Source: Sphingomonas sp. Leaf34 | GTDB lineage: Bacteria; Pseudomonadota; Alphaproteobacteria; Sphingomonadales; Sphingomonadaceae | DNA length: 64,000 bases | Assembly (NCBI RefSeq): GCF_001421805.1 | Contig: NZ_LMLC01000003.1 | Coordinates: 496,236-560,235 of the forward strand | Direction of reading: 5' to 3' | In this document: one piece after another, positions 26,991-41,747 of the stretch | Layout: each line of letters begins with the position of its first letter | Position numbering within the stretch: the first letter of the stretch is position 1 | The notes under the pieces: generated by a model | Told to the model about the DNA's origin: nothing | Databases searched by the model: none | Seen by the model: only the letters and a program-made list of their open reading frames with translations | Translations under genes and position numbers: made by a program

Positions 26991-28139
26991 ATGCAGATTC
27001 GTCTACCCGCTCTCGTCATGGGCCTGCCGCTGATACTCGGCGGCAGCGTTGCATTGGCACAGACCGCCGCGCCCACCGCCCCGTCGGCGTCGAAAACTGC
27101 GTCGGGCACCGCCAAGAGCGACCCGCGCAGCCCCGATGGCAAGCGCTATCTGTCGCAGCCGCTGGTCAGCAGCATCTATACCGCCGATCCGTCGGCGCAC
27201 GTCTTCAACGGCAAGATCTACGTCTACCCGAGCCATGACATCGATGCGGGAATCGGCGACGACGATCTCGGCAACCAATATGCGATGCGCGACTACCGCG
27301 TCCTGAGCATGGACCGCATCGGCGGCCCGGTGAAGGTCAATGGCGTCGCGGTCGACGTGAAGGATGTGCCCTGGGCGTCGAAGCAGATGTGGGCGCCCGA
27401 TGCAGCCTACAAGAACGGGACGTATTTCCTGTACTTCCCGGTCCGCGACAAGATGCTCGACAAGAACGGCCTCGGCACGTTCCGGATCGGCGTCGCCACG
27501 TCGAAAAGCCCGACCGGACCGTTCAAGGCCGATCCAAAGCCAATCGCGGGCAGCTTCTCGATGGATCCGGCGGTGTTCACCGACGCGACCGGCGCCAGCT
27601 ACATGTATTTCGGCGGTATCTGGGGCGGCCAGCTCCAGCGCTGGAAGGACGGCAAGTTCGACGCCAACGGCTCGGACACCGACCTCGGCAAGGACGACCA
27701 GCCCGCGCTGTCGGGCAAGATCGCCAAGCTCAACCCCGACATGAAGAGTTTTGCCGAGACGCCGCGCGACGTCCAGATCCTCGACGAGGCCGGCAAGCCC
27801 GTCCTCGGTGGCGACCATGAGAAGCGCTTCTTCGAGGCGTCCTGGGTCTTCAAGCGCGGCGGCACATATTACTATACCTACTCGACCGGCGACACGCACT
27901 TCCTGAACTATGCGACCGGCGACAACCCCTATGGTCCGTTCACCTATAAGGGCCATATCCTGAAGCCGGTGCAGGGCTGGACGAGCCACCATTCGATCGT
28001 CGAGTGGAACAAGAAATGGTGGCTGTTCTATGCGGACACGCAGCTGAGCAACAAGAACCACCTGCGCAACGTCAAGGTGACCGAACTGAAGTTCGCACCC
28101 GACGGCTCGATCCCGACCATCGATCCGTTCGTCAACTGA
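26991..28139 (+). CDS. Exported glycoside hydrolase family 43 (xylosidase/arabinofuranosidase)
   Basis: A 382-residue GH43 enzyme with a signal peptide ending near VALAQ. The five-bladed propeller carries the catalytic triad: base Asp66 (YTADPSAHVF), the pKa-modulating Asp in SMDPAVF and the acid Glu in FFEASWVF (near residue 280). There is no C-terminal accessory domain, so it is a single-domain exo-enzyme. First gene of an operon: its TGA overlaps the ATG of xylB (TGATG), coupling extracytoplasmic cleavage to xylose catabolism. Confidence 0.9.
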   Translation: MQIRLPALVMGLPLILGGSVALAQTAAPTAPSASKTASGTAKSDPRSPDGKRYLSQPLVSSIYTADPSAHVFNGKIYVYPSHDIDAGIGDDDLGNQYAMRDYRVLSMDRIGGPVKVNGVAVDVKDVPWASKQMWAPDAAYKNGTYFLYFPVRDKMLDKNGLGTFRIGVATSKSPTGPFKADPKPIAGSFSMDPAVFTDATGASYMYFGGIWGGQLQRWKDGKFDANGSDTDLGKDDQPALSGKIAKLNPDMKSFAETPRDVQILDEAGKPVLGGDHEKRFFEASWVFKRGGTYYYTYSTGDTHFLNYATGDNPYGPFTYKGHILKPVQGWTSHHSIVEWNKKWWLFYADTQLSNKNHLRNVKVTELKFAPDGSIPTIDPFVN

Positions 28140-29584
28140 TGTTCCTCGGAATCGATATCGGCACCTCGGGTGTCAAGGCCGTGGTGCTCGACACGCATGG
28201 CAGCGTGGTGGGCCAGGGCACGGCCGCGCTGACCGTGCAGCGGCCGCACCCGCTCTGGTCCGAACAAGATCCCGACGCATGGTGGCAGGCGACCACCGCC
28301 GCGGTGCAGGCGATCGACCCGAGTGTCCGCCGTTCGGTGCGGGGCGTCGGCCTCGCGGGCCAGATGCACGGCGCGACGATACTGGATGCCGACGACCGTC
28401 CGCTGCGCCCGGCGATCCTGTGGAACGATGGCCGCAGCTTCGCGCAATGCGCGGCGCTGGAGCGCGCCGTTCCCGATCTCCGCACGATCTCGGGTAACAT
28501 CGCGATGCCCGGCTTCACCGCGCCGAAACTGCTCTGGGTGCGCGAGCATGAGCCCGACGTCTTCGCGAAGATCGCCACCGTGCTGCTGCCAAAGGACTAT
28601 GTCCGGCTGCTGATGACCGGCGACAAGGCATCGGACCTTTCGGACAGTGCCGGCACGCTGTGGCTCGACGTCGGAGGCCGCTGCTGGAGCGACGAGATAT
28701 TGGCCGCCTGCGGACTGACGCAGGCGCAGATGCCGACCTTGTTCGAGGGATCGCAGATCGCGGGCACGCTGACCGCATACGTCGCTGCGCTCTGGGGCAT
28801 GCCCCAGGTTGCGGTCGCAGCGGGCGGCGGCGACAATGCAGCGGGCGCGGTCGGTGTGGGTGTCGTCAAGGACGGCGACGCGCTGCTGTCGCTCGGCACG
28901 TCGGGGGTGATCTTCGTCGCGACCAGCGACTTCCGCCCCAACCCTGATCGCGCGGTCCATGCCTTCTGCCACGCGCTGCCGGGGCTGTGGCACCAGATGT
29001 CGGTGCACCTGTCGGCTGCGTCCTGCATCGACTGGGTCGCGCGGATCACTGGTGCCGCCGGCGCCGCCGACCTGTTCGCGCGCGCCGAAGCTGCCGGCCC
29101 CGCGTGTGGCCCCGAACTCTTCCTCCCCTATCTGTCGGGCGAGCGCACGCCGCACAACGACCCCGAAGTTCGCGGCGCATTCCTCCTCCTCGACAACGAC
29201 ACCGACGCCGGCCGCCTGTCGCAGGCGGTGCTGGAGGGCGTGGCGTTCGCGCTCGCTGACGGTCTCGATGTCCTGCGCGAAGCGGGCACCGTCGTCGAAC
29301 GGCTCGCGGTCATCGGCGGCGGCGCGCGCTCCCGCTACTGGGGCGAAGTGATCGCGGCGACGATGGAGGTCGAACTCGTCTATCTCCAGGGCGGCGAAGT
29401 CGGCCCCGCGCTAGGCGCCGCACGGCTGGCCCAGCTCGCCGTCGATGGTGGCGACCCCGCCGACATCTGCGTCGCGCCCCCCGTCTCGCACAGCATCATC
29501 CCCGACCCTGCCCTCGTCTCGGCGCTCGCCGAGAAAAAGGCCGCGTTCCGCCAGGCCTATTCCCGCATCACGCCAAAATCGTAG
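28139..29584 (+). CDS. xylB: Xylulokinase
   Basis: A 481-residue FGGY-family kinase phosphorylating D-xylulose to xylulose 5-phosphate. It begins [16 protein letters not shown] (phosphate-binding loop), has [13 protein letters not shown] and LWNDGR typical of xylulokinase, the catalytic Asp region [11 protein letters not shown] and the C-terminal [11 protein letters not shown]. The start overlaps the upstream GH43 stop by one base; xylA follows after 8 nt. Confidence 0.93.
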
Positions 29585-29592
29585 GAATCCCG

Positions 29593-30900
<1,308 letters not shown>

Positions 30901-30949: not shown

Positions 30950-31966
30950 CTATCGGCTGGCGGTATCTACCACTGCCGATTGCGGGGCAGCGCGCCGTTC
31001 GATCCGATATTGCGCGACGATGCCGATGTGATCCGACAGCATCGAACCATCGGCGCGGCGGCCGAACGGTGCGGCCAGCGCGATGGGCGTGATCGCGATC
31101 GTTGGCGAGGCGCGATACATCAGCCAGTCCTTCGCCCGGCCGAGCGATTCTGCCATCGCCAGCGGCTGGGCGACCGGACAGGCCGGTGCGGTGCTGCACG
31201 TGACGGCGGCGGCCTGAAGCAGGTCGCTCCCGCCGAACATCCGCAGATCGAAATGCGCACGCCGGGCCAGGTCGCGACCGACGTTGAAATCGCCCGCGAC
31301 GAGCACCGGCCGATCACCCGCCCCCAGGGCGGCGATGAAGTTCGAAAGCAGATCGAGCTGCCGGCGATAGGCATAGATTGCCCGCGTATTTGCGGCGCCC
31401 GATGCGCCGTTCGAATTGAGATGCGTGTCGATTACCAGGATCGGTGTGGCGATCCCGGGCACCGCGATCAGCGCCGCCAGCGCGCCTTTGTTGGCGAGGC
31501 AGTCATATCCGGCGCACACCGGGTACGCCATGCGTCGCACCGCAACGATCGGATAGTCGGAGAAGATCGCCAAGCCGCTGTCGACATGCTTGCCGAGCCG
31601 CTCGCCGACCAGCCTGCTGCCATCCGCGACGAACCCGCCATCACCCGGCGCGCGGGCGCCATCCGCATCCTCGGCCGGGCCGAACGCGACATAGCGATAT
31701 CCCGCAGTCCGGCCGATCGCCTTGGCCTCGGGGACGAACGCCTCCTGAACCGCGACGATGCCGGGCTGGACATGCCGGTCGCGCATGATCTTCAACTGGT
31801 CGCCAATCGCCTGCAACGCGGACGAGCGGTCCTCGACGATCGGCCAGGGCAGGCCGTGCACGTTATACGTCATCAGCGTGACGGCGCGTGCGGCGGGGGT
31901 GGCGGCAGGCGAAACGGTCGCCAGCATCGTTGCGGCCACGACAAGCGCCGTGAGATACCGAAGCAT
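30950..31966 (-). CDS. Exported endonuclease/exonuclease/phosphatase-family hydrolase (sphingomyelinase C-like)
   Basis: A 338-residue protein with an N-terminal signal peptide and the EEP fold: LMTYNVHGLP, the metal-binding Glu in IVAVQEAF, IDTHLNSNG, VLVAGDFNVG and the terminal SDHIGIVA (catalytic His). The family includes DNases, phospholipases and sphingomyelinase C. Export and the overall pattern suggest a phosphodiesterase acting outside the cytoplasm; the substrate is unknown. It stands apart from its neighbours, convergent with xylA. Confidence 0.8.
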   Translation of the reverse strand: MLRYLTALVVAATMLATVSPAATPAARAVTLMTYNVHGLPWPIVEDRSSALQAIGDQLKIMRDRHVQPGIVAVQEAFVPEAKAIGRTAGYRYVAFGPAEDADGARAPGDGGFVADGSRLVGERLGKHVDSGLAIFSDYPIVAVRRMAYPVCAGYDCLANKGALAALIAVPGIATPILVIDTHLNSNGASGAANTRAIYAYRRQLDLLSNFIAALGAGDRPVLVAGDFNVGRDLARRAHFDLRMFGGSDLLQAAAVTCSTAPACPVAQPLAMAESLGRAKDWLMYRASPTIAITPIALAAPFGRRADGSMLSDHIGIVAQYRIERRAAPQSAVVDTASR

Positions 31967-32005
31967 GATATCGTCCTATGCGAAGCAGGTAGAAAAAAGG
32001 CGCGG

Positions 32006-32512
32006 CTACCGCTTGATCGGGGCGAACGAGAACAGCCCGCTGCGATAGTTCATCACGACATGCGTCGTCGTCAGGCCGTCATGGACGACGACCGTCGCCT
32101 GATCGGCGTGCGGCTTCGAATGCCCCAGCCTCGGGTTGCTCGCAAAACCGATGCCGTCGTGCAGCAGGCTGAAACCGTGACCGCCGTCGCGCGCATGGAC
32201 GACGCTCAGCGCATAGGCGCCCGGCGCAGGAACGCGCAGGCACAGCGACACGATTCCCGCCGCCGGCACGGTCACAACTGCGCGCCGGAACACCTTGCCC
32301 TGCCCGATCAGCACATTGTCGTCGGCAAGGAAATCGCCGTCCTTCGCCGGATAGAGTTCGGCGCGGAGCACGCCGACACGGTCCTTCAGTCCGTCCACGT
32401 CGACGATCAACGCCGGCCCCTGCTCGTGCGGACGGCAGCGCGCTTCGGCGGTACCGAGCGCCGGGGTCGAGGGCGGCGTCACCGCGAGGGTCAACAGGGC
32501 AAGCAGGATCAC
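32006..32512 (-). CDS. Exported DUF2141 protein
   Basis: A 168-residue protein with a short signal peptide and the DUF2141 pattern (VLRAELYPAKDGDFLADD, then CLRVPAPGAYALSVVHARDG and ending GIGFASNPRLGHSKP). Function is unknown. The start is GTG 32512, whose GTGA overlaps the TGA of the upstream membrane-protein gene, so the two are co-translated. Confidence 0.75.
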   Translation of the reverse strand: MILLALLTLAVTPPSTPALGTAEARCRPHEQGPALIVDVDGLKDRVGVLRAELYPAKDGDFLADDNVLIGQGKVFRRAVVTVPAAGIVSLCLRVPAPGAYALSVVHARDGGHGFSLLHDGIGFASNPRLGHSKPHADQATVVVHDGLTTTHVVMNYRSGLFSFAPIKR

Positions 32513-33444
32513 GTGGTACGCTCCATGGTCACGAGTTCGACGGCGGTCAGCACGGCGCCGAGCAGCAGATGAGTGATGAGCCAGAGCCCGGCGATCATCG
32601 TCAGCACCGCGGTCACGTCCGAGGTCCGCCCGACGGTGAACGCCACCAGCCCGGCGAACACGATGTCCTTGTTGGGCAACAGCGGCAGGCGCGACACCAG
32701 CAGGCGCAGGGTGGCCAACGCCAGCCACCAGGCGAGCGGCGCGGCGGGCATCACCACTGCCCACAGCACCGCGGCGAACAGCGTGGTTGCGACGATCCGG
32801 ACGACGTGAATGACCGCGATCCGGCGCAGTTCGTGCCGCGGCAACGTCAGCAGCGTCTTGCGGAGAACGAGCGTGACGAGCGACGGGATCGCCATGCTGG
32901 CCGCCGATAGCGTCATCACCTTGGCATCCGTGCCCAGATGCAGCGCGCCGAGCGTCGGCCAGCTGACCAGCGCGAGCGCGAGCGTGCAGACATTGGCGAC
33001 CACCGCCGACAGGATCGCGACGTCCTTGATCGCGCCGAACGGCGTCCCGACCATCGTCGCGTGTTTGCGGGCCCAGCCATAGAAATACAGCTCGCCCGAA
33101 TAGCCAAGGACGATCTCGTTGCTGATCCGCTTGCGCAGCAGCGCCAGGATCCCGTTCGGCGGCAACTGCCACAACCGGCGATAGATTACCCATTCGCTGA
33201 ACGGCGTGACCAGATAGCCGAGCGCGAAGATCGTCCAGAACAGCGGCGAGCGCGGCACCATGCGCAGCATCTCGCGAACGTCGATCCCGCGCAGTTGCCA
33301 CAAGGCGGCGATCAGGATCGCGGCGGACAGCACGGGTGCGAGCCAGCGGCCGAGGACATTCTTGCGCACGATCGTCGGCGTCAGCGGCGGCAGATGTACG
33401 CGCGCCAGCGGCGGCAGTCCCAGCGGTATCGGCCTGTCGCTCAT
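32509..33444 (-). CDS. Multi-pass membrane protein, weakly like lysylphosphatidylglycerol-synthase membrane domains
   Basis: A 311-residue integral membrane protein with about eight hydrophobic segments. It has no catalytic motif I can name. The order of helices with a YSGELYFYGW stretch and a late SRLPLLPNKDIVFAG loop is loosely reminiscent of the LPG synthase/UPF0104 membrane domain, but I would not rely on it. ATG 33444 has AAGGAGAG upstream. It is divergent from the DUF2334 deacetylase/glycosyltransferase operon and coupled to the DUF2141 gene. Confidence 0.65.
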   Translation of the reverse strand: MSDRPIPLGLPPLARVHLPPLTPTIVRKNVLGRWLAPVLSAAILIAALWQLRGIDVREMLRMVPRSPLFWTIFALGYLVTPFSEWVIYRRLWQLPPNGILALLRKRISNEIVLGYSGELYFYGWARKHATMVGTPFGAIKDVAILSAVVANVCTLALALVSWPTLGALHLGTDAKVMTLSAASMAIPSLVTLVLRKTLLTLPRHELRRIAVIHVVRIVATTLFAAVLWAVVMPAAPLAWWLALATLRLLVSRLPLLPNKDIVFAGLVAFTVGRTSDVTAVLTMIAGLWLITHLLLGAVLTAVELVTMERTT

Positions 33445-33662
33445 GCGTCTCTCCTTCGAACGATACGGGGTTCGGGACATCTTGCCGATCGCACGTCGGC
33501 GGGATGGGAGACGGGCAGGCAAACCGTGATCATGGCCGAACGACGCCGCCGTTTGCGGCTGGCCCCAGCCGCTGCTGTCGCTGCGGTGAAATAAATTTTT
33601 GGCAAGGAGGGGGCAGGACTGCGGACGCGGATCCGCCGTGCCGTCCCGTCGACAGTGTTGCC

Positions 33663-34496
33663 ATGACGAACGAGAGCGAGAATATCGTGCAGACCGACAG
33701 TGCCGATCGGGCGTCGTTACGGGCGCCCCCTGCCGACAGGCGATTGATCGTATCGATCCACGACGTGTCGCCCACATTCGCGTTGCCGATCGCTATGCTT
33801 GCCGAGCGGATCGCGACGATCCTGGGCGGGCCACGGTTCGCAATGCTCGTGGTGCCCGATCACTGGGGCAGCGCGCGGATCGATCAGTCCCCCGCGTTCG
33901 TCCGGCGGCTGCGCGACTGGGCGGATGCGGGCGTCGAGATGTTTCTTCACGGCTGGTACCATCGCGACACGAGTGCGCATCGCGTCGGTGCCAGCGCGTT
34001 GAAGGCACGCTACATGACCGCTGGCGAAGGCGAGTTTCTCGGGCTCGACGCGGGCGAGGCGGAACGCCGCATGCGCGCCGGTCGCGATATGGTCGAACAG
34101 GCCATCGGCCGCCCCGTCGCCGGATTCATCGCCCCCGCCTGGCTCTATGGTCCGGGCGCGCATGCCGCGCTGAAAGCCTGCGACTTCGCGCTGGCCGAGA
34201 ATCATGTCCGCGTCTGGCAGCCGCGGACCGGCGCGATCGTTGCGCGCGGTCCGGTCGTGACCTGGGCCAGCCGCTCGCCCGCGCGCACCGCCAGTTCGCT
34301 CGCTGTCGCCGCCGCCGCACGCATGTTGCCCGACTGGATGCCGACGATGCGCGTCGCGGTGCATCCCGGCGACGTCACCAAGTCGTCGCTGCTGACCAGC
34401 ATCGACCGCACGCTTCGCACGCTCGCCGAACGCCGTACCGTGTCGCGCTATGCCGAACTGGTCTCCGAGCAGGTCCCGTTGGCGGTGGCAGCATGA
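33663..34496 (+). CDS. Polysaccharide deacetylase-like protein (DUF2334)
   Basis: A 277-residue protein of the DUF2334 branch of polysaccharide deacetylases. It carries VSIHDVSPTFA (catalytic/metal Asp), MFLHGWYHRD (metal His pair) and a FIAPAWLYG block. There is no signal peptide, so it probably works in the cytoplasm on a glycolipid or nucleotide-linked glycan. Its stop overlaps the glycosyltransferase start (ATGA). Joint action with that enzyme on a lipid-linked sugar is a reasonable inference. Confidence 0.8.
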   Translation: MTNESENIVQTDSADRASLRAPPADRRLIVSIHDVSPTFALPIAMLAERIATILGGPRFAMLVVPDHWGSARIDQSPAFVRRLRDWADAGVEMFLHGWYHRDTSAHRVGASALKARYMTAGEGEFLGLDAGEAERRMRAGRDMVEQAIGRPVAGFIAPAWLYGPGAHAALKACDFALAENHVRVWQPRTGAIVARGPVVTWASRSPARTASSLAVAAAARMLPDWMPTMRVAVHPGDVTKSSLLTSIDRTLRTLAERRTVSRYAELVSEQVPLAVAA

Positions 34497-35686
34497 AGAT
34501 CGTCGACGTCTGCGCGTTCTACACGCCGACTGGCGGCGGGGTGCGGACCTATATCGATCGCAAGCTGGTCGCGCTCGCCGACCGCGGTCACGAGATCGTC
34601 GTGATCGCGCCGGGCGAAGAGGATCGCGAGGAACGGCGCGGGCCCAATGCGCGCGTGCGCTGGCAGCGCTCGCCACGCTTTCCGCTCGACCGGTCCTATC
34701 GCTATTTCGCCGATCGCGACGCGCTCCACGCCATGCTCGACGAAGAGGATGCGGATGTCGTCGAGGTGTCGTCGCCGTGGCGCAGTGCGTCGATGGTCGC
34801 GGACTGGCGGACGCGGTCGGGATCGCGCGCGCGGCTCTCGCTGATCGCGCATGCCGACCCATTATCCGCTTATGCCTATCGCTGGTTCGGCAACGTCGCG
34901 TCGACGCACGCGATCGATCGTGCGTTCGACTGGTACTGGCGCCATCTGCGGCGGCTCGACGCGCAGTTCGATCATATTGTCAGCGCGAGCGAAAGCCTGA
35001 CGCAGCGGCTGCGCGAGGGCGGTCTGCGGAAAGTGACGACCGATCCGATGGGCGTCGAGCCGGGCCAGTTCTCGCCACGACTGCGCGATCCCACGCTGCG
35101 CCGCGAGATGCTCGCGCTGTGCGGACTTGGCGAGGATGCACTGCTGTTGATCGGCGTCGGGCGCCATGCACCCGAGAAACGCTGGGACATGGTCGCGCAG
35201 GCCGCAGCGATCGCCGGCACGCAGGCGCCGGTCGGGTTGCTGATCATCGGCGGTGGCTCTCGCCAGCGGCGCGTGATCGAGGCGATCGGCGACAATCCAC
35301 ACGTCCGCCTGCTCGAGCCGGTCCGCGATCGCGGCGCGGTGGCGCGGCTGATGGCCAGCGCCGACGCGCTGATCCATGGTTGCGAGGCGGAGACATTCTG
35401 CTTCGTTGCCGCAGAGGCGATCGCGTCGGGGTTGACGCTGATCGCACCCGACCGGGGCGGCGCGGCCGATCTCGCCTGCGCAAACGATGGCGCGCTGTAT
35501 CGCTCGGGGGATGCGCAGGACGCGGCCGAGGCGATCCTCGCCGTGGCTCGCACGATCACGGCCTCCGTGCAGCGCCGCCGCCCGGTCCGAACGATGGACG
35601 ATCATTTCGACGCGCTGCTCGCGCTCTACGGCGCCGCACCCGCGATCGATCACACCCGACGGTATCAGCAAGGAACGGGACGATGA
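34493..35686 (+). CDS. Glycosyltransferase family 4-type enzyme (GT-B fold)
   Basis: A 397-residue GT-B glycosyltransferase. The N-terminal domain starts MKIVDVCAFYTPTGGGVRTY (acceptor-side glycine-rich loop). The C-terminal domain has LIGVGRHAPEKRWDM and the donor-binding HGCEAETFCFVAAEAIASG with the E-x7-E pattern of GT4 enzymes. Donor and acceptor are unknown. It overlaps both neighbours by 4 nt (ATGA), so it is the middle of a tightly coupled three-gene operon. Confidence 0.87.
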   Translation: MKIVDVCAFYTPTGGGVRTYIDRKLVALADRGHEIVVIAPGEEDREERRGPNARVRWQRSPRFPLDRSYRYFADRDALHAMLDEEDADVVEVSSPWRSASMVADWRTRSGSRARLSLIAHADPLSAYAYRWFGNVASTHAIDRAFDWYWRHLRRLDAQFDHIVSASESLTQRLREGGLRKVTTDPMGVEPGQFSPRLRDPTLRREMLALCGLGEDALLLIGVGRHAPEKRWDMVAQAAAIAGTQAPVGLLIIGGGSRQRRVIEAIGDNPHVRLLEPVRDRGAVARLMASADALIHGCEAETFCFVAAEAIASGLTLIAPDRGGAADLACANDGALYRSGDAQDAAEAILAVARTITASVQRRRPVRTMDDHFDALLALYGAAPAIDHTRRYQQGTGR

Positions 35687-35919
35687 CCGCGATCGCGCCA
35701 CAGCTTTTCATCGCAGACGAAACGCCGCGCTTCGTCACACCAATCGTGCGCGCGACGCGGAGCGAGCAGGACGATTTGCTCGACCTACCGCAGACGGTGG
35801 CGGCGTCGCCATGGCGTGCGCCGCTCTTCTACCTTTCGTTCGTGGCGGGCGCGGTGCTGCTCGTCGCAATCGCGATCGTCCTGACCTGGCGAATGGTCAC
35901 CGGGTTGCGCCAAGCCTGA
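35683..35919 (+). CDS. Small single-pass membrane protein
   Basis: A 78-residue protein with a soluble N-terminal half and one strong transmembrane helix near the C-terminus (LFYLSFVAGAVLLVAIAIVL). It is not a recognised family. It starts with an ATGA overlap from the glycosyltransferase, so it is almost certainly real. It might anchor the glycosyltransferase or deacetylase at the membrane (inference). Confidence 0.7.
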   Translation: MTAIAPQLFIADETPRFVTPIVRATRSEQDDLLDLPQTVAASPWRAPLFYLSFVAGAVLLVAIAIVLTWRMVTGLRQA

Positions 35920-36037
35920 CCGGCGCCGACATTTCGGGGGCGACTTCCGATCGGTCAACGGGCAAGACCCGCATGATGACGTTCGGAGCCATGCCGTAGC
36001 CGACACGGACCCTCTTCGGCCCGCCGGTCTGTCGGCG

Positions 36038-36529
36038 GTGCTTGCGGCGCATCGCCTGCAGCTCGTCCGGTTCTTCACCGGGCGGACGGGCAGCGTCGCG
36101 GACGCCGAAGACGTCGTGCAGGAGATCTGGCTGCACATCGCCGAACCTATCGCGGGTCCGATTGCCAATCCGGTGGCCTATCTTCACCGGATCGGTATGA
36201 ACATCGTCCTCGACCGCGTCCGCGCGAACGGCCGGCGGGTGCGCCGCGACAGCGGCTATGTCGATGCGACGACGACCATCATGGGCGGTGCCGAGGCGGT
36301 CGACGACGCACCGTCCGCGTTCGATGCAGTCGCCGGACGCCAGCGGATCGCGCAACTCGCCGCCGCGCTCGCCGGTCCGCCCGAAGGCGCGATGCGCGTG
36401 TTTCGCCGCCACAAGATCGACGGCCTGTCGCACGCCGAGGTGGCCGCCGAGTTCGGCATCAGCCGTAGCGCGGTCGAAAAGCATGTCGCGGTCGCGCTGC
36501 GCCATCTCAGAAAGGCGCTAAATGATTGA
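36038..36529 (+). CDS. ECF sigma factor, FecI type
   Basis: A 163-residue sigma-70 family ECF protein. Region 2 reads FTGRTGSVADAEDVVQEIWL, and region 4 ends EVAAEFGISRSAVEKHVAVALRHLRKAL. It directs transcription of the nearby receptor in FecI/FecR systems. The start is uncertain: GTG 36038 is used since no ATG or SD fits, and the frame stays open upstream. An anti-sigma/FecR gene follows after 84 nt. Confidence 0.87.
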   Translation: MLAAHRLQLVRFFTGRTGSVADAEDVVQEIWLHIAEPIAGPIANPVAYLHRIGMNIVLDRVRANGRRVRRDSGYVDATTTIMGGAEAVDDAPSAFDAVAGRQRIAQLAAALAGPPEGAMRVFRRHKIDGLSHAEVAAEFGISRSAVEKHVAVALRHLRKALND

Positions 36530-36613
36530 GTTTAGCGCCGGACTGCGGTGGGCTGCCCGTGGTGGCGTCTATCAGGCGAGCGGGGGGCATCCGCTCGGAA
36601 CGAGGGTGCCGTG

Positions 36614-37594
36614 ATGGATGCAACGACCCAGGATCCGATCGACGCGGCGGCCGCCTGGCACGCGCGGATCGATGCGCCCGACATGGACTGGGCGCGCTTC
36701 GGCGACTGGCTCGCCGCCGATCCGTCGCACCGCGCTGCCTACGACTCGGTCGCGCTACTCGATGCAGAGATCGGCGCGGCGGCCCCGGCGATCGCCGCTG
36801 TGCTCCCGGCAAACGACGACCGCCTCGCCGACCGACCTCCTGTCGCGCGTTCGTCCCGCTGGCGCTGGATGGCGGGCGGTACCGGCGGTGCCCTCGCTGC
36901 GGGTCTGGCATTGCTCTTCGTCATGTCGCCCGTCGCGAATACCGGGGATCGCGCCGTGCTTTATGCCACCAACGCCGGTGACACGCGCGCAATCACGCTG
37001 GCCGATGGCAGTGCGATGCGGCTCGATCGCGGCTCGCGCGTGTCGGTGTCGGGCGGCACGACCCCATTGATCGAGATCGCGGACGGCGCGGCCAGCTTCT
37101 CCGTGCGTCACGATCCATCGCGCACGGTGATCGTTCGCGCCGGCGGCTATGACATCCAGGACATCGGCACGCGCTTTGCCGTCGTCAATGCGCAGGGGCG
37201 AATCTCGGTAGCGGTCGCCGAGGGCAGCGTCCGTGTTTCGCCGCATGTCGACGACGGCAGCCCGCCGACCACCCTGACCGCGGGCCAGCGGATCGACATC
37301 GACCCCGCCGTCGGGATCGCCGAGCGGCGCACTGTCTTACCGGCCTCGGTGGCGGACTGGAGCGACGGCCGCCTCGATTATGACGGCGCGCCGTTGACGC
37401 TGGTTGTCGCCGACATATCGCGGTATGCCCGCGCCCCGCTGGTGGTCGATCCGTCCGCCGCCGAACTGGTTTTTTCCGGGGTTTTGACGATTGGCGACGG
37501 CTCGCGGCTTCTCGATCAGCTTCGTGCGGTACTGCCGCTGCGCCTGCGTCGCGCTGACGGCGTCGTCCATATCGAGCGCATCGGTTCACGCTGA
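36614..37594 (+). CDS. FecR-family anti-sigma factor / transmembrane signal transducer
   Basis: A 326-residue FecR protein. The cytoplasmic N-terminus has the DUF4880-type block (AAAWHARIDAPDMDWARFGDWLAADPSHRAAYD), followed by one membrane helix (GGALAAGLALLFVMSPV) and the periplasmic FecR domain (TLADGSAMRLDRGSRVSV, then IQDIGTRFAVV and VAEGSVRVS). It holds the ECF sigma factor inactive until the receptor signals. Its 3' end overlaps the receptor gene by about 70 nt. Confidence 0.9.
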   Translation: MDATTQDPIDAAAAWHARIDAPDMDWARFGDWLAADPSHRAAYDSVALLDAEIGAAAPAIAAVLPANDDRLADRPPVARSSRWRWMAGGTGGALAAGLALLFVMSPVANTGDRAVLYATNAGDTRAITLADGSAMRLDRGSRVSVSGGTTPLIEIADGAASFSVRHDPSRTVIVRAGGYDIQDIGTRFAVVNAQGRISVAVAEGSVRVSPHVDDGSPPTTLTAGQRIDIDPAVGIAERRTVLPASVADWSDGRLDYDGAPLTLVVADISRYARAPLVVDPSAAELVFSGVLTIGDGSRLLDQLRAVLPLRLRRADGVVHIERIGSR

Positions 37595-39842
37595 GCCCCC
37601 GCGCGGCAACCCCGCGCGCATCGTCCTTCCCGCCGGATCGCTGCGGATCGCGCTCGACGCGCTCGCCCGCCAGACCGGCATCTCGATCGGCATGGCCGGC
37701 GCACTACCCGATACGCCGCCCCGGAAGACAACGCGCGCCAGCAATGTTGCGCAGGCGCTGAAGCGATTGCTCGCGGGAACGCATCTGCGCGCGGTCCAAA
37801 TCGATGTAGCAACCTGGCGGATCGAACCGCTGCCCCGTCGGCCGGACTCCCCGCATGCCGTCGCACCGCCGATCACCGAAGGTGGCGATATCATCGTCAC
37901 CGCCAGCAAGCGCGACGAACGGCTATCGGACCTGCCCGCGTCGATCAGCATCCTCGGCGGCCCGTCGCTCGACCGGCTCGCCGGCAAGCGTGGCCTAGTC
38001 GATCTGCTCGCGACCACCGACGGCGCGTTTTCGACCAATCTCGGCCCCGGCCGTGATCGCGTATTCCTGCGCGGTGTCGCCGACAGCGCATTCAATGGCA
38101 CCAGCCAGTCGCTCGTCAGCCTGTATCTGGACGACGCGCGGATAGGCTATTCCTCGCCCGATCCCGATCTGCGGATGGTCGACATCGACCGCGTCGAGAT
38201 CCTTCGCGGACCGCAGGGTACGCTGTACGGCACCGGCGCGCTTGGCGGCGTGATTCGCATCGTCACCACCGCGCCCGAGCTCGACGACGTTTCCGGCAGC
38301 GTCGCGGGCGAAGCGACCGGCATCAACAACGGCGCGTTCGGGGGCGCGCTCGACGCGACGCTCAACCTGCCGATCGTCACCGGGACGCTCGCCCTACGCG
38401 CGTCGGGCTGGACCGAGACGATGCCCGGTTGGATCGATGACACCGGCCGAGACAAGAGTGATGTCAACCGAACCACCCGCAGTGGCGCTCGCGCCGCACT
38501 GCGCTGGGCGATCGGCAAGGGCTGGAGCGCGACCGCGAGCGCTGTCGCGCAATCTATAGAGGGGCGCGACAGCCAGTACGCGACCAAGGGGCTCGCGCGC
38601 GCGACCGCTCTTGCCGAACCGCAGGCCAATGACTTCGTGTCGGGCTCGCTCGATGTACACGGCCCGATCGGCAGCCTCGACGCGCAGTCGACCACCTCGG
38701 TCGTCTCGCATGAATTCGGCAGCACCTACGATGCCAGCATTCTGGCGGGGGCACTCGGGACGGCCGCGCCCGTTGCCTATGTCGAGGATCGGGCGATCCG
38801 GCTCCTGACTCAGGAGGTCCGGCTCAGCGACCCGACGGCGCGCCACCCCTGGATCGTCGGCGCGTCGATCCTGCATGCGACCACGCGCCGCAAAGGCCGC
38901 TTCGAAACGGATGCGACCCGCGCAATCGCACGCGACGACAAGGAAGCGGTGTTCGAGGCGGCGATGTTCGCGGAGGGCACGCAGCGACTGTCGTCCGCGC
39001 TCGACCTGAAGATCGGCCTGCGCGGCTTCCTGACGGTGAACGACATCGAGCAGCAGGGCCCCGACGAGCAGAGCACCACCAAGCTGGGCATCACCCCGAG
39101 CGGTACGCTCAGCTGGCATCGTGACGATGCCGGGATGGTCTGGCTGCGTTATGCCAGCGCCATTCGCCCGGCTGGTGTCACGCGCGCGACGATCAGCAAC
39201 GAACGGCGCATCCCCGGCGACGAATTGCAGAGCATCGAACTCGGCTGGCGTATCCGCGGGCTGGACGATCGGCTGAGTCTCAGCGGGGCGATCTTTGGAT
39301 CTGTCTGGGAGCATCTTCGCAGCGACGTGGTCGGCTCGGATGGGTTGTTCGGAACGGTCGATGCGGGGGACGCGACGAACTACGGCGTCGAGTTTGGCGG
39401 GCGGTTCGACGCAGAGCCCTATATGATCGACTTCGGTACCACGATCCAGCGTGCGCGGCTCACCTCGCCTGCGACGGAGCGTACTGAGCAGGTCGATCGC
39501 CGCTTGCCGGTCGTCCCCGATTATTCGGCGCGGCTGAGTGTCACGCGGCGGTTCGCGCTGAACGCGATGCCCGCGCGCGGGTATGTGACGGTGCGTTATA
39601 TCGGCCAGACTCGACTGAGCTTCGATCCGCTGCTCGATCGTCCCGCGGGCGATTACGCGACTTTCGGCGCGGGCGCGACACTCGACGATGGTGCGCGCCA
39701 CTGGTCGGTCACGGTCGACAATCTGCTCGACGAACGCGGCAACAGCTTCGGCTTCGGCAACCCCTTTACGCTGGCGACCACCACGCAGACCGTCCCGATC
39801 CGTCCGCGCTCGATCACGCTCAGGCTGGCGATCGGGCTCTGA
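37524..39842 (+). CDS. TonB-dependent outer-membrane receptor with STN signalling domain
   Basis: A TonB-dependent transducer of about 772 residues. A signal peptide ends near ASVHA. The STN signalling domain follows at about residues 32-95 (LRIALDALARQTGISIGM), then a TonB box-like IIVTASKR, the plug (RVEILRGPQGTLYGTGALGG) and a 22-strand barrel. The STN domain means it talks to the FecR protein next door. The cargo could be a siderophore or an oligosaccharide. The start is uncertain: GTG 37524 gives the cleanest signal peptide, TTG 37491 is possible. Either way it overlaps fecR. Confidence 0.87.
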   Translation: MRYCRCACVALTASSISSASVHAEPPRGNPARIVLPAGSLRIALDALARQTGISIGMAGALPDTPPRKTTRASNVAQALKRLLAGTHLRAVQIDVATWRIEPLPRRPDSPHAVAPPITEGGDIIVTASKRDERLSDLPASISILGGPSLDRLAGKRGLVDLLATTDGAFSTNLGPGRDRVFLRGVADSAFNGTSQSLVSLYLDDARIGYSSPDPDLRMVDIDRVEILRGPQGTLYGTGALGGVIRIVTTAPELDDVSGSVAGEATGINNGAFGGALDATLNLPIVTGTLALRASGWTETMPGWIDDTGRDKSDVNRTTRSGARAALRWAIGKGWSATASAVAQSIEGRDSQYATKGLARATALAEPQANDFVSGSLDVHGPIGSLDAQSTTSVVSHEFGSTYDASILAGALGTAAPVAYVEDRAIRLLTQEVRLSDPTARHPWIVGASILHATTRRKGRFETDATRAIARDDKEAVFEAAMFAEGTQRLSSALDLKIGLRGFLTVNDIEQQGPDEQSTTKLGITPSGTLSWHRDDAGMVWLRYASAIRPAGVTRATISNERRIPGDELQSIELGWRIRGLDDRLSLSGAIFGSVWEHLRSDVVGSDGLFGTVDAGDATNYGVEFGGRFDAEPYMIDFGTTIQRARLTSPATERTEQVDRRLPVVPDYSARLSVTRRFALNAMPARGYVTVRYIGQTRLSFDPLLDRPAGDYATFGAGATLDDGARHWSVTVDNLLDERGNSFGFGNPFTLATTTQTVPIRPRSITLRLAIGL

Positions 39843-39862: not shown

Positions 39863-41530
39863 TTAATACCCCAGCGCATGCGCCAGCGTCAGCAGCAGCC
39901 AGTACAGCCCGCCCGACAGCAGCATCGCCACCGGCAGCGTCATCACCCACGCCAACGCCATGTTCATGACCGTCCGGCGCTGCAACCCGGCGCCGTTGGC
40001 GACGCTCGCGCCCGCGACGCCCGACGACAGGATGTGCGTGGTCGACACCGGCATCCCGAAATTCACCGCCAGCAGGATCGTCGACGCCGCGACCAGCTCG
40101 GCCGACGCCCCCATCCCATAGGTCAGATGCGTCTTGCCGATCCGCTCGCCCACCGTGACGACGATCCGCTTCCACCCGACCATCGTCCCCAGCCCCAGCG
40201 CCAGCGCGACGGTCACCTTCACCCAGGTCGGGATGTAGCGCGTGCCCTGTTCGAGCCCGCTATTGTAGCTCTTGAGCGTCGTGATCTCCTGCGCGGTGAA
40301 GCGGCTCTGCGCGGACGTGTCGGCGGCGATCAGCTTGGTCGTGTCGAGCACGAGGTACATGTCGTTACGCAGGTTCGGCGTCGCCGCGGCGGGCACTTTG
40401 CCCAGCGACCCATAGCCCGCGATCCGGCTCGACACGTCGTTCGACAGAGTGGCCAACGCGCCATAGATGACCGGATCCGAAACCTGCTTGGTCTTCAAGG
40501 CCTGCGTCACCTGCGCGCGCGCCTCACCGACGCCGGCGGGCGCGCCATTGGCGTGCGCGCGGTAGGCGGCCGACGCCGCCTGCGCGGTCTGCACGAACGC
40601 CGGCGTCGCGCTCTCGGGCATCGTCCGGTTAAGCGCATAGGCGGTCGGCGCGCAGCCGATCAGGATGAGCATGATCAGCCCCATCCCCTTCTGCCCGTCA
40701 TTGCTGCCATGCGCGAAGCTGACCGCGGTGCACGTGCCGATCAGCAGCGCGCGGATGCCGCGCGGCGGCGGCGTCTGGCCTTCGGGCGCCTCGTACAGCG
40801 CCTTGTCGCGCAGGAACCGCTTCATCACGAGCAGCAGCAGGAGTGCACCGACGAAGCCGACGATCGGGCTGAACGCGAGCGCGGACAGCACTTTCCAGAC
40901 CTGCGCCATGTCGACGCCCGACGTCCCGTCTGCGCCGCCGCGGATGAGCTGGTTGGCAAGGCCGACGCCGAGGATCGAGCCGATCAGCGCATGGCTCGAC
41001 GAATTCGGCAGACCGACCGCCCAGGTCGCGAGGTTCCACACGATCGCCGCGAGCAGCAGCGCGAAGATCATCGCGAACCCGCCGACGCTGCCGACGTTGA
41101 GGATCAGGTCGACCGGCAACAGCGTGACGATCGAATACGCCACCGCGCCCGACGACAGCATCACGCCAAGGAAGTTGAAGAACCCCGACCACACGACTGC
41201 GAGCGGCGCGGGCATCGAATGCGTGTAGATGACGGTCGCCACCGCGTTGGCGGTATCGTGGAAGCCGTTCACGAACTCGAACCCGAGCGCGATCAACAGC
41301 GCGAGCGCGAGGAACGCGAACGCGCCGCCCGCGAGACTCTCGCCGACCTGCGCGGTGTCGAACGCGATGCTGAACCCGGCATAGGCAAGCCCGCCGATCA
41401 GCACCGCGAGGAAGATCCACCGCCCCGCCGGATGCAGCGCGTGATCGAGCTTGGGACCGGTACGCGGCGCCGCGTCGCTGGCGCTCGAATCAGCCGTCAG
41501 CGCGTCGCGTGCAAATGTGGATGTAACCAT
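39863..41530 (-). CDS. pit: Low-affinity inorganic phosphate transporter, Pit family
   Basis: A 555-residue Pit-type Na+/H+-phosphate symporter. Both family repeats are present: GFEFVNGFHDTANAVATVIYT with NSSSHALIG, and FAHGSNDGQKGMG with the C-terminal GMPVSTTHILSSG. A large loop of about 150 residues (near 370-440) is inserted before the last helices. The start is ATG 41530. A near-perfect PHO box lies just upstream, so PhoB probably controls it. It converges with the TonB receptor gene. Confidence 0.92.
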   Translation of the reverse strand: MVTSTFARDALTADSSASDAAPRTGPKLDHALHPAGRWIFLAVLIGGLAYAGFSIAFDTAQVGESLAGGAFAFLALALLIALGFEFVNGFHDTANAVATVIYTHSMPAPLAVVWSGFFNFLGVMLSSGAVAYSIVTLLPVDLILNVGSVGGFAMIFALLLAAIVWNLATWAVGLPNSSSHALIGSILGVGLANQLIRGGADGTSGVDMAQVWKVLSALAFSPIVGFVGALLLLLVMKRFLRDKALYEAPEGQTPPPRGIRALLIGTCTAVSFAHGSNDGQKGMGLIMLILIGCAPTAYALNRTMPESATPAFVQTAQAASAAYRAHANGAPAGVGEARAQVTQALKTKQVSDPVIYGALATLSNDVSSRIAGYGSLGKVPAAATPNLRNDMYLVLDTTKLIAADTSAQSRFTAQEITTLKSYNSGLEQGTRYIPTWVKVTVALALGLGTMVGWKRIVVTVGERIGKTHLTYGMGASAELVAASTILLAVNFGMPVSTTHILSSGVAGASVANGAGLQRRTVMNMALAWVMTLPVAMLLSGGLYWLLLTLAHALGY

Positions 41531-41552
41531 GGAGTCGCAGTCGGCCCTTACG

Positions 41553-41570
41553 ATGACAATCTTATGACAG
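41553..41570 (-). promoter_or_regulatory. PHO box in front of pit
   Basis: Reading the minus strand: CTGTCAT-AAGA-TTGTCAT, two 7-bp direct repeats separated by 4 nt, as in the PhoB binding consensus. It ends 22 nt before the pit start codon. A possible promoter (TTGATC, 17 nt, TGTCAT) overlaps the box, which would fit repression by PhoB rather than activation; this last point is inference. Confidence 0.8.
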
Positions 41571-41618
41571 ATGTAGATCAAGCGACGATTAGGCCTGATT
41601 TGGGACGCCCCCATAACG

Positions 41619-41747
41619 ATCCTTCCCCGCCAGGGGGAGGTGGCGCCGAAGGCGACGGAGGGGGCGGACACGCAACCGAGGTTCCGCTCCCCTCCCCCTC
41701 CGTCTGGCAAGCGCCAGCCACCTCCCCCTTGCGGGGGAGGATCGGTC
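41619..41747. repeat. Intergenic palindromic repeat, family A copy 2
   Basis: Inverted blocks ATCCTTCCCCGCCAGGGGG at the left and CTTGCGGGGGAGGATCGG at the right, with internal GACGGAGGGGG / CCCCTCCGTC. The layout is that of the copies at 23171 and 52311. It lies between pit and the UrcA gene. Confidence 0.75.

Follow-up and report, generated by a model that had tools for sequence, protein, structure and literature searches.

A predicted synthase, deacetylase and flippase module in sphingomonads, probably acting on a sphingolipid

Described amino-sugar lipid systems and the Leaf34 locus

In Pseudomonas, gpgS is needed for N-acetylglucosaminyl-phosphatidylglycerol, gpgD converts this lipid to glucosaminyl-phosphatidylglycerol, and gpgF encodes a predicted flippase (PMC12713373). 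The gpgSDF operon has been likened to hexSDF of Clostridioides difficile (PMC12713373), a system in which an N-acetylhexosyl glycolipid loses its acetyl group and HexF is similar to the flippase domain of MprF (PMC10128005). Here we describe a compact set of five genes, hereafter the module, in a stretch of 64,000 nucleotides from Sphingomonas sp. Leaf34 (contig NZ_LMLC01000003.1, positions 496,236 to 560,235; hereafter the window). We believe, with good confidence, that, like GpgSDF and HexSDF, it is a synthase-deacetylase-flippase module. We also favour, less firmly, a fuller reading, in which a cationic amino sugar is put on a membrane lipid and the acceptor is most likely glucuronosyl-ceramide.

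The module consists of two divergent units. On the plus strand, genes for a DUF2334 deacetylase (33663-34496), a GT4 glycosyltransferase (34493-35686) and a fast-evolving, 78-residue single-pass membrane protein (35683-35919) are joined by ATGA overlaps at 34493-34496 and 35683-35686. On the minus strand, the gene for a multi-pass membrane protein, which we call MEM (32509-33444), is joined by a GTGA overlap (32509-32512) to the gene for a probably exported DUF2141 protein, which has a GTG start (32006-32512). The original prediction, made from the letters of the window, had named these five genes and three four-base overlaps, and all are present as described. The promoters presumably lie in the intergenic stretch between the two units (33445-33662); a promoter scan of 31900-36700 found no sigma-70 consensus site. 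Terminator and Rfam scans gave nothing useful for the module, and its G+C content is inside the range of the window.

The GT4 protein matches NF053787, the NCBIfam family of N-acetylglucosaminyl-phosphatidylglycerol synthase, at 169.1 bits, and its next family at 49.8 bits. The sole NCBIfam match of the deacetylase is NF053788, the deacetylase of the same lipid, at 135.2 bits. Pfam confirms the GT4 domains and matches the deacetylase to DUF2334 at 69.3 bits (cut-off 26); a search of PDB sequences with the deacetylase gave no match. For comparison, we took gpg proteins from genomes that exceed the GpgD cut-off. Identity of the deacetylase to GpgD-type proteins is 25-28%, with HD, HGxxH and HPxD invariant in 15 rows, and that of the GT4 protein to its gpg counterparts is 30-32%, with E-x7-E (E300-x7-E308) invariant in 12 rows. 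Many relatives of the deacetylase start about 20 residues downstream of the start in the window. By sequence, then, no characterised family comes nearer to the two enzymes than GpgS and GpgD, and the margin is wide. Since both are distant relatives of characterised proteins, the earlier statement that four of the five proteins lack a known role was too strong. We rejected membership of the two enzymes in the curated GpgS and GpgD families, as both lie under the cut-offs of these families.

In a tree of GT4 proteins, the family of the window protein forms one clade (Shimodaira-Hasegawa-like approximate likelihood ratio test 99, stem 1.92 changes per column), separate from GpgS and from two further GT4 groups. 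This tree is a quick search over 49 rows of our own choosing, with a long-branch warning and one gene (from G010) present twice. A deacetylase gene adjoins 24 of 24 rows in the subclade of the window protein and 4 of 13 in the other, which holds a second copy from the same genome, a contrast that is partly built in because most rows of the first subclade were collected via the deacetylase.

MEM has no Pfam or NCBIfam match up to an E value of 1. Of 51 members of the MEM family, at most one is matched by any given Pfam family (best E 0.019), and the MprF-family Pfam model, whose name we take to be LPG_synthase_TM, matches neither the window MEM nor any of the 51. The AlphaFold model of MEM (pLDDT, a per-residue confidence, 88.3; pTM, a whole-fold confidence, 0.84) points to MprF. 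With VIA-align, six MprF entries reach Z 15.7-17.5 over 271-278 residues at 10-13% identity and the next match reaches 6.3; helical models may reach Z of about 14 through common arrangement, and we take the match as true because one family stands on top with a gap beneath it. With Foldseek, too, two MprF structures come out on top (E 9e-3 and 1.2e-2, probability 1.00). The helices of the model (30-51; 67-92; 98-111 with 116-128; 136-160; 174-194; 203-231; 237-251 with 259-271; 276-310) follow the order described for MprF flippase subdomain 1, namely transmembrane helices 1, 2, 3a, 3b, 4-6, 7a, 7b and 8 (PMC8131360), and each of the two half-helix pairs has invariant charged residues (K105, R126, R252, K259 and D260). 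Unlike MprF, MEM stands alone, without subdomain 2 and without a synthase domain. On the strength of the model, MEM is most likely a lipid flippase with the subdomain 1 fold, and likely represents a flippase family absent from Pfam.

The DUF2141 protein matches PF09912 at 38.9 bits (cut-off 24.4). Its model (pLDDT 87.9) shows a hydrophobic N-terminus followed by a beta-rich domain; fold comparison gave common beta-sandwich matches (best PDB match Z 7.5) and was uninformative. A DUF2141 gene has been described beside crtG in Sphingomonadales, without known function in that account (PMC5989583). Two further DUF2141 genes are present in the Leaf34 genome outside the module and its second copy (L107, L108).

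The three-part reading follows from GpgS and GpgD being the nearest families, from the conserved residues, from the predicted fold of MEM and from the logic of GpgSDF and HexSDF. As in gpgSDF of Pseudomonas aeruginosa, a GT4 enzyme, a deacetylase and a predicted flippase stand in one set, and catalytic residues are common to both. Unlike in gpgSDF, the gene order is another one, the enzymes are 25-32% identical to their counterparts and under the cut-offs, MEM is not recognisably GpgF by sequence, and a DUF2141 gene and a link to serine palmitoyltransferase (Spt) are additional. HexSDF, likened here by description, also combines a synthase, a deacetylase and an MprF-like flippase for an amino-sugar glycolipid, but it acts on a Gram-positive glycerol glycolipid and its synthase is annotated as another type (PMC10128005).

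We propose that the GT4 enzyme adds an N-acetylhexosamine, probably N-acetylglucosamine from UDP-N-acetylglucosamine, to a lipid at the cytoplasmic face of the membrane. The DUF2334 enzyme would strip the acetyl group. MEM would then carry the lipid across to the leaflet that faces the periplasm, where the DUF2141 protein may assist. If the acceptor is glucuronosyl-ceramide, the product would be the glucosamine-bearing part of the glycosphingolipids GSL-3 and GSL-4. We infer the substrate, the order of the steps, the catalytic roles, the flipping and the parts played by the DUF2141 and 78-residue proteins from these comparisons. A small glycan or glycolipid modification system had been suggested in the original prediction, and the kinship with GpgS and GpgD, the MprF fold of MEM and the architecture of the DUF2141 protein favour a glycolipid system.

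Conservation and gene order

A search of species genomes with the deacetylase gave 187 relatives, and the best 80 were retained as loci (L002-L081). Counts in these loci are thus conditional on the deacetylase; the other module genes were located with profiles built from the window proteins. By source name, the loci are mostly from sphingomonads, some are given only as Pseudomonadota or Proteobacteria, and one as Actinobacteria. We used the 63 loci with full flanks (17 with short flanks were excluded; the neighbourhood thresholds are our own). Near the deacetylase, MEM was found in 61 of these, GT4 in 62, DUF2141 in 57 and all four genes in 57; with the short-flank loci included, all four were found in 67 of 80. 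The module genes therefore do occur together outside this strain. The conserved neighbourhood is wider than was stated in the original prediction.

The commonest arrangement is collinear, deacetylase-GT-B-MEM-DUF2141-GT4 (24 of 63 full-flank loci), where GT-B is a second GT4-type gene that occurs in 43 of the 80 loci. The divergent order of the window is found in 19 of the 63, and the collinear order without GT-B in eight. Eight plasmid records had a MEM match and five were examined; the plasmids pTB1 of Sphingobium yanoikuyae and pLA3 of N. pentaromativorans carry the collinear set. In S. parapaucimobilis, MEM-DUF2141-GT4 is accompanied by a convergent deacetylase gene. Thus, the grouping of the deacetylase, GT4, MEM and DUF2141 survives rearrangement, being divergent in Sphingomonas and collinear elsewhere.

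By its sequence, the 78-residue protein can be recognised in the nearest loci alone (9 of L002-L081). A small membrane-spanning open reading frame follows GT4 in 20 of 20 loci among L002-L021, in none of three (L022, L068 and L079) and in 4 of 49 collinear loci.

The acceptor lipid and rival explanations

Glucosamine is among the sugars of Sphingomonas glycosphingolipids (PMC6445935). Caulobacter, an Spt-positive alphaproteobacterium, glycosylates ceramide stepwise with Sgt1 and Sgt2, which we liken to the present case by description; these enzymes differ in adding a hexuronic acid and then a hexose, and the cited passages describe no deacetylase (PMC6445935). Hexuronic-acid glycosphingolipids and homologues of Sgt1 and Sgt2 were reported in Novosphingobium in 2026 (PMC13318209).

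The genome of the window encodes Spt (G000:C5:62056-63237, 591.8 bits, cut-off 500). Among 289 alphaproteobacterial genomes, eight have MEM and 42 have Spt over the cut-off, and all eight MEM-positive genomes have Spt. In a sample of 299 Pseudomonadota genomes, 12 are MEM-positive, all of them Alphaproteobacteria. Ten further MEM-positive genomes, nine from this sample and G027, are all Spt-positive, which gives 18 of 18. The test covered these 18 genomes (leaving out four more with MEM, namely G002, G018, G020 and G023, and the genomes of the 80 loci), and they span six families (f1, f4, f5, f12, f106 and f171). Within family f12, one genome has both MEM and Spt (G334) and two have neither (G060, G158). 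The window-type deacetylase was found in four of the 299 genomes, all MEM-positive, and among Spt-positive genomes the window-type GT4 was found in 2 of 2 with MEM versus 0 of 10 without it.

L125, from a distant genus of family f171, shows a physical link. In this locus, Spt has a window-type GT4, MEM and DUF2141 within about 12 kb. A fatty acyl-AMP ligase gene, a reductase-like gene and LptF stand among or next to these genes, and a hydroxylase-like gene and a squalene-hopene cyclase gene are farther upstream. A cluster of GT4, MEM and LptF is also present in L154 and L115. Spt in all 18 MEM-positive genomes tested, together with this sphingolipid cluster, leads us to favour a glycosphingolipid over phosphatidylglycerol, and it is the best supported of the three targets named in the original prediction, which also listed hopanoids and polysaccharides. 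Spt-positive relatives that do not have MEM (G126, G167) indicate that the module is dispensable for sphingolipids as such; they would fit strains making only GSL-1.

Several results weigh against the glycosphingolipid reading or parts of it. Both enzymes are under their family cut-offs, the GT4 protein with 169.1 versus 480 bits for NF053787 and the deacetylase with 135.2 versus 280 bits for NF053788. Foldseek returned nothing for the MEM model at E ≤ 0.001, and comparison of MEM and GpgF profiles with hhalign gave a probability of 0.1, in a test limited by a shallow GpgF set (84 versus 7 rows). The genes can also be found apart. L068 and L079 have deacetylase-GT4 pairs without MEM in the stretch, and a MEM relative of S. 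koreensis has no other module gene in the stretch examined, which starts 2 kb before MEM. GT4-MEM sets without a nearby deacetylase exist, among them the second copy in the Leaf34 genome, which has none within 20 kb, and some MEM relatives adjoin other glycosyltransferases (L126, L127, L155, L156, L158). In the genome of the window, spt lies away from the module. Spt may be present in nearly all sphingomonads, which leaves the six families as the basis of the co-occurrence. Finally, Caulobacter completes ceramide synthesis in the periplasm (PMC11087976), so that sugar transfer in the cytoplasm fits poorly and needs a detour.

The nearest sequences point to phosphatidylglycerol, and genome context points to a sphingolipid. 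Glucosaminyl-phosphatidylglycerol was our first reading, and it was set aside after the Spt co-occurrence and the L125 cluster. The module could be a diverged gpgSDF operon that makes this lipid, with the sphingolipid link arising from the shared ancestry of its hosts. In favour of this, the characterised families that come nearest are GpgS and GpgD, and the three-gene logic is identical (PMC12713373), but the scores lie far under the cut-offs, MEM is dissimilar to GpgF in sequence, none of the seven genomes over the GpgD cut-off (299 sampled) is alphaproteobacterial, and Spt accompanies MEM in L125. Spt is also absent from all eight GpgD-type genomes (the seven over the cut-off and G279 below it), a contrast with the 18 MEM-positive genomes that taxonomy alone could explain because those eight belong to other classes. 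We consider a phosphatidylglycerol acceptor unlikely. It is also rather improbable that the same three steps act on another envelope glycan or lipid, such as a hopanoid, a glycosyl-diacylglycerol or a lipid-linked saccharide of a surface polysaccharide. HexSDF targets a glycerol glycolipid, so acceptors do vary (PMC10128005), more than half of the 80 loci have the second glycosyltransferase GT-B, and the squalene-hopene cyclase gene in L125 weakly favours this reading. On the other side, the window shows neither a polysaccharide polymerase gene nor export genes next to the module. The deacetylase matches DUF2334, and the hopanoid enzyme HpnK presumably belongs to another family. That the genes serve no common pathway and sit side by side in two operons with only a promoter region in common is scarcely credible to us. 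Their opposite strands in the window and the origin of most loci in a single order speak for it, but the genes stay together through rearrangement, and GT4 and MEM are also paired outside the sphingomonad order (L125, L154).

If the glycosphingolipid reading is true, one three-part design of sugar transfer, deacetylation and flipping serves a phospholipid, a glycerol glycolipid and a sphingolipid. The sphingomonad glycosphingolipid stands in for lipopolysaccharide, and the module probably puts a positively charged sugar on it, which, if true, would fill a known gap in bacterial sphingolipid biology. According to a paper of 2024, a flippase or transporter for bacterial sphingolipids was still to be identified (PMC11087976), and one of 2026 lists several glycosyltransferases of the sphingolipid glycan as still unknown (PMC13028669). 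Our search of the open-access literature found no genes assigned to the glucosamine step of sphingomonad glycosphingolipids, no sphingolipid flippase and nothing on the module. The module thus offers concrete candidates for two gaps, the flippase and the missing glycosyltransferases.

Elsewhere in the Leaf34 genome, a reductase gene, Spt and two LptF/LptG-like genes lie in one stretch (L153:7627-14749). These are perhaps a sphingolipid transport system.

Neighbouring genes, the second copy and diverged relatives

The module is followed on the plus strand by genes for an extracytoplasmic function (ECF) sigma factor (36038-36529; TIGR02937, 60.9 bits, cut-off 42.9), a FecR-type regulator (36617-37594; PF04773, 60.3 bits; open frame from 36548) and a TonB-dependent receptor (37593-39842; PF07715 plug, 52.6 bits; start uncertain, open frame from 37491). 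They are near the module in 38, 38 and 39 of the 80 loci, on its downstream side where the arrangement is divergent and on its upstream side where it is collinear. Among the other loci compared, L148 alone had the sigma factor and FecR genes, and this locus also bears the module. The N-terminus of the receptor weakly matches that of FecA (E 5.9e-5). As a tentative and rather doubtful extension, the module may be a counterpart of the amine modification of lipid A, in which glucosamine placed on glucuronosyl-ceramide would give GSL-3 and GSL-4, MEM would found a group of MprF-fold sphingolipid flippases, and the TonB-FecR-ECF set would switch the system on in response to an outside signal.

On the other side of the module, a gene on the minus strand (30950-31966) encodes an endonuclease/exonuclease/phosphatase-family protein with a hydrophobic N-terminus (PF03372, 40.9 bits). 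It is near the module in 22 of the 80 loci. Among solved structures, it weakly resembles sphingomyelinase C and beta-hemolysin (E 2.2e-6 to 8.3e-4). A sphingomyelin phosphodiesterase model gives a weak match to its S. yanoikuyae relative (27.1 bits, cut-off 248.2). Farther upstream lie sugar-use genes, xylA, xylB and one more (26991-30900); xylA, xylB and the gene at 26991-28139 were rejected as module members, being found in none of the 80 loci. The same count for a transporter gene at 39863-41710 is no test, because this gene lies beyond the fetched flanks.

Contig C5 of the Leaf34 genome carries the second copy, a GT4-DUF2141-MEM set with GT-B divergent (L111:9818-13641). It is flanked by UbiG and AI-2E transporter/signal peptidase I genes, the same site as that of the S. 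parapaucimobilis set. Diverged MEM relatives in families f106 and f5 lie beside another GT4 group, with no window-type GT4 or deacetylase nearby (L126, L127, L155, L158). Beside a module of the second-copy type, L149 (12447-13880; relatives in L113, L114 and L128) encodes a large unannotated protein with weak similarity to PMT_2 (E 0.0016, below the cut-off), which on this similarity is perhaps a periplasmic glycosyltransferase.

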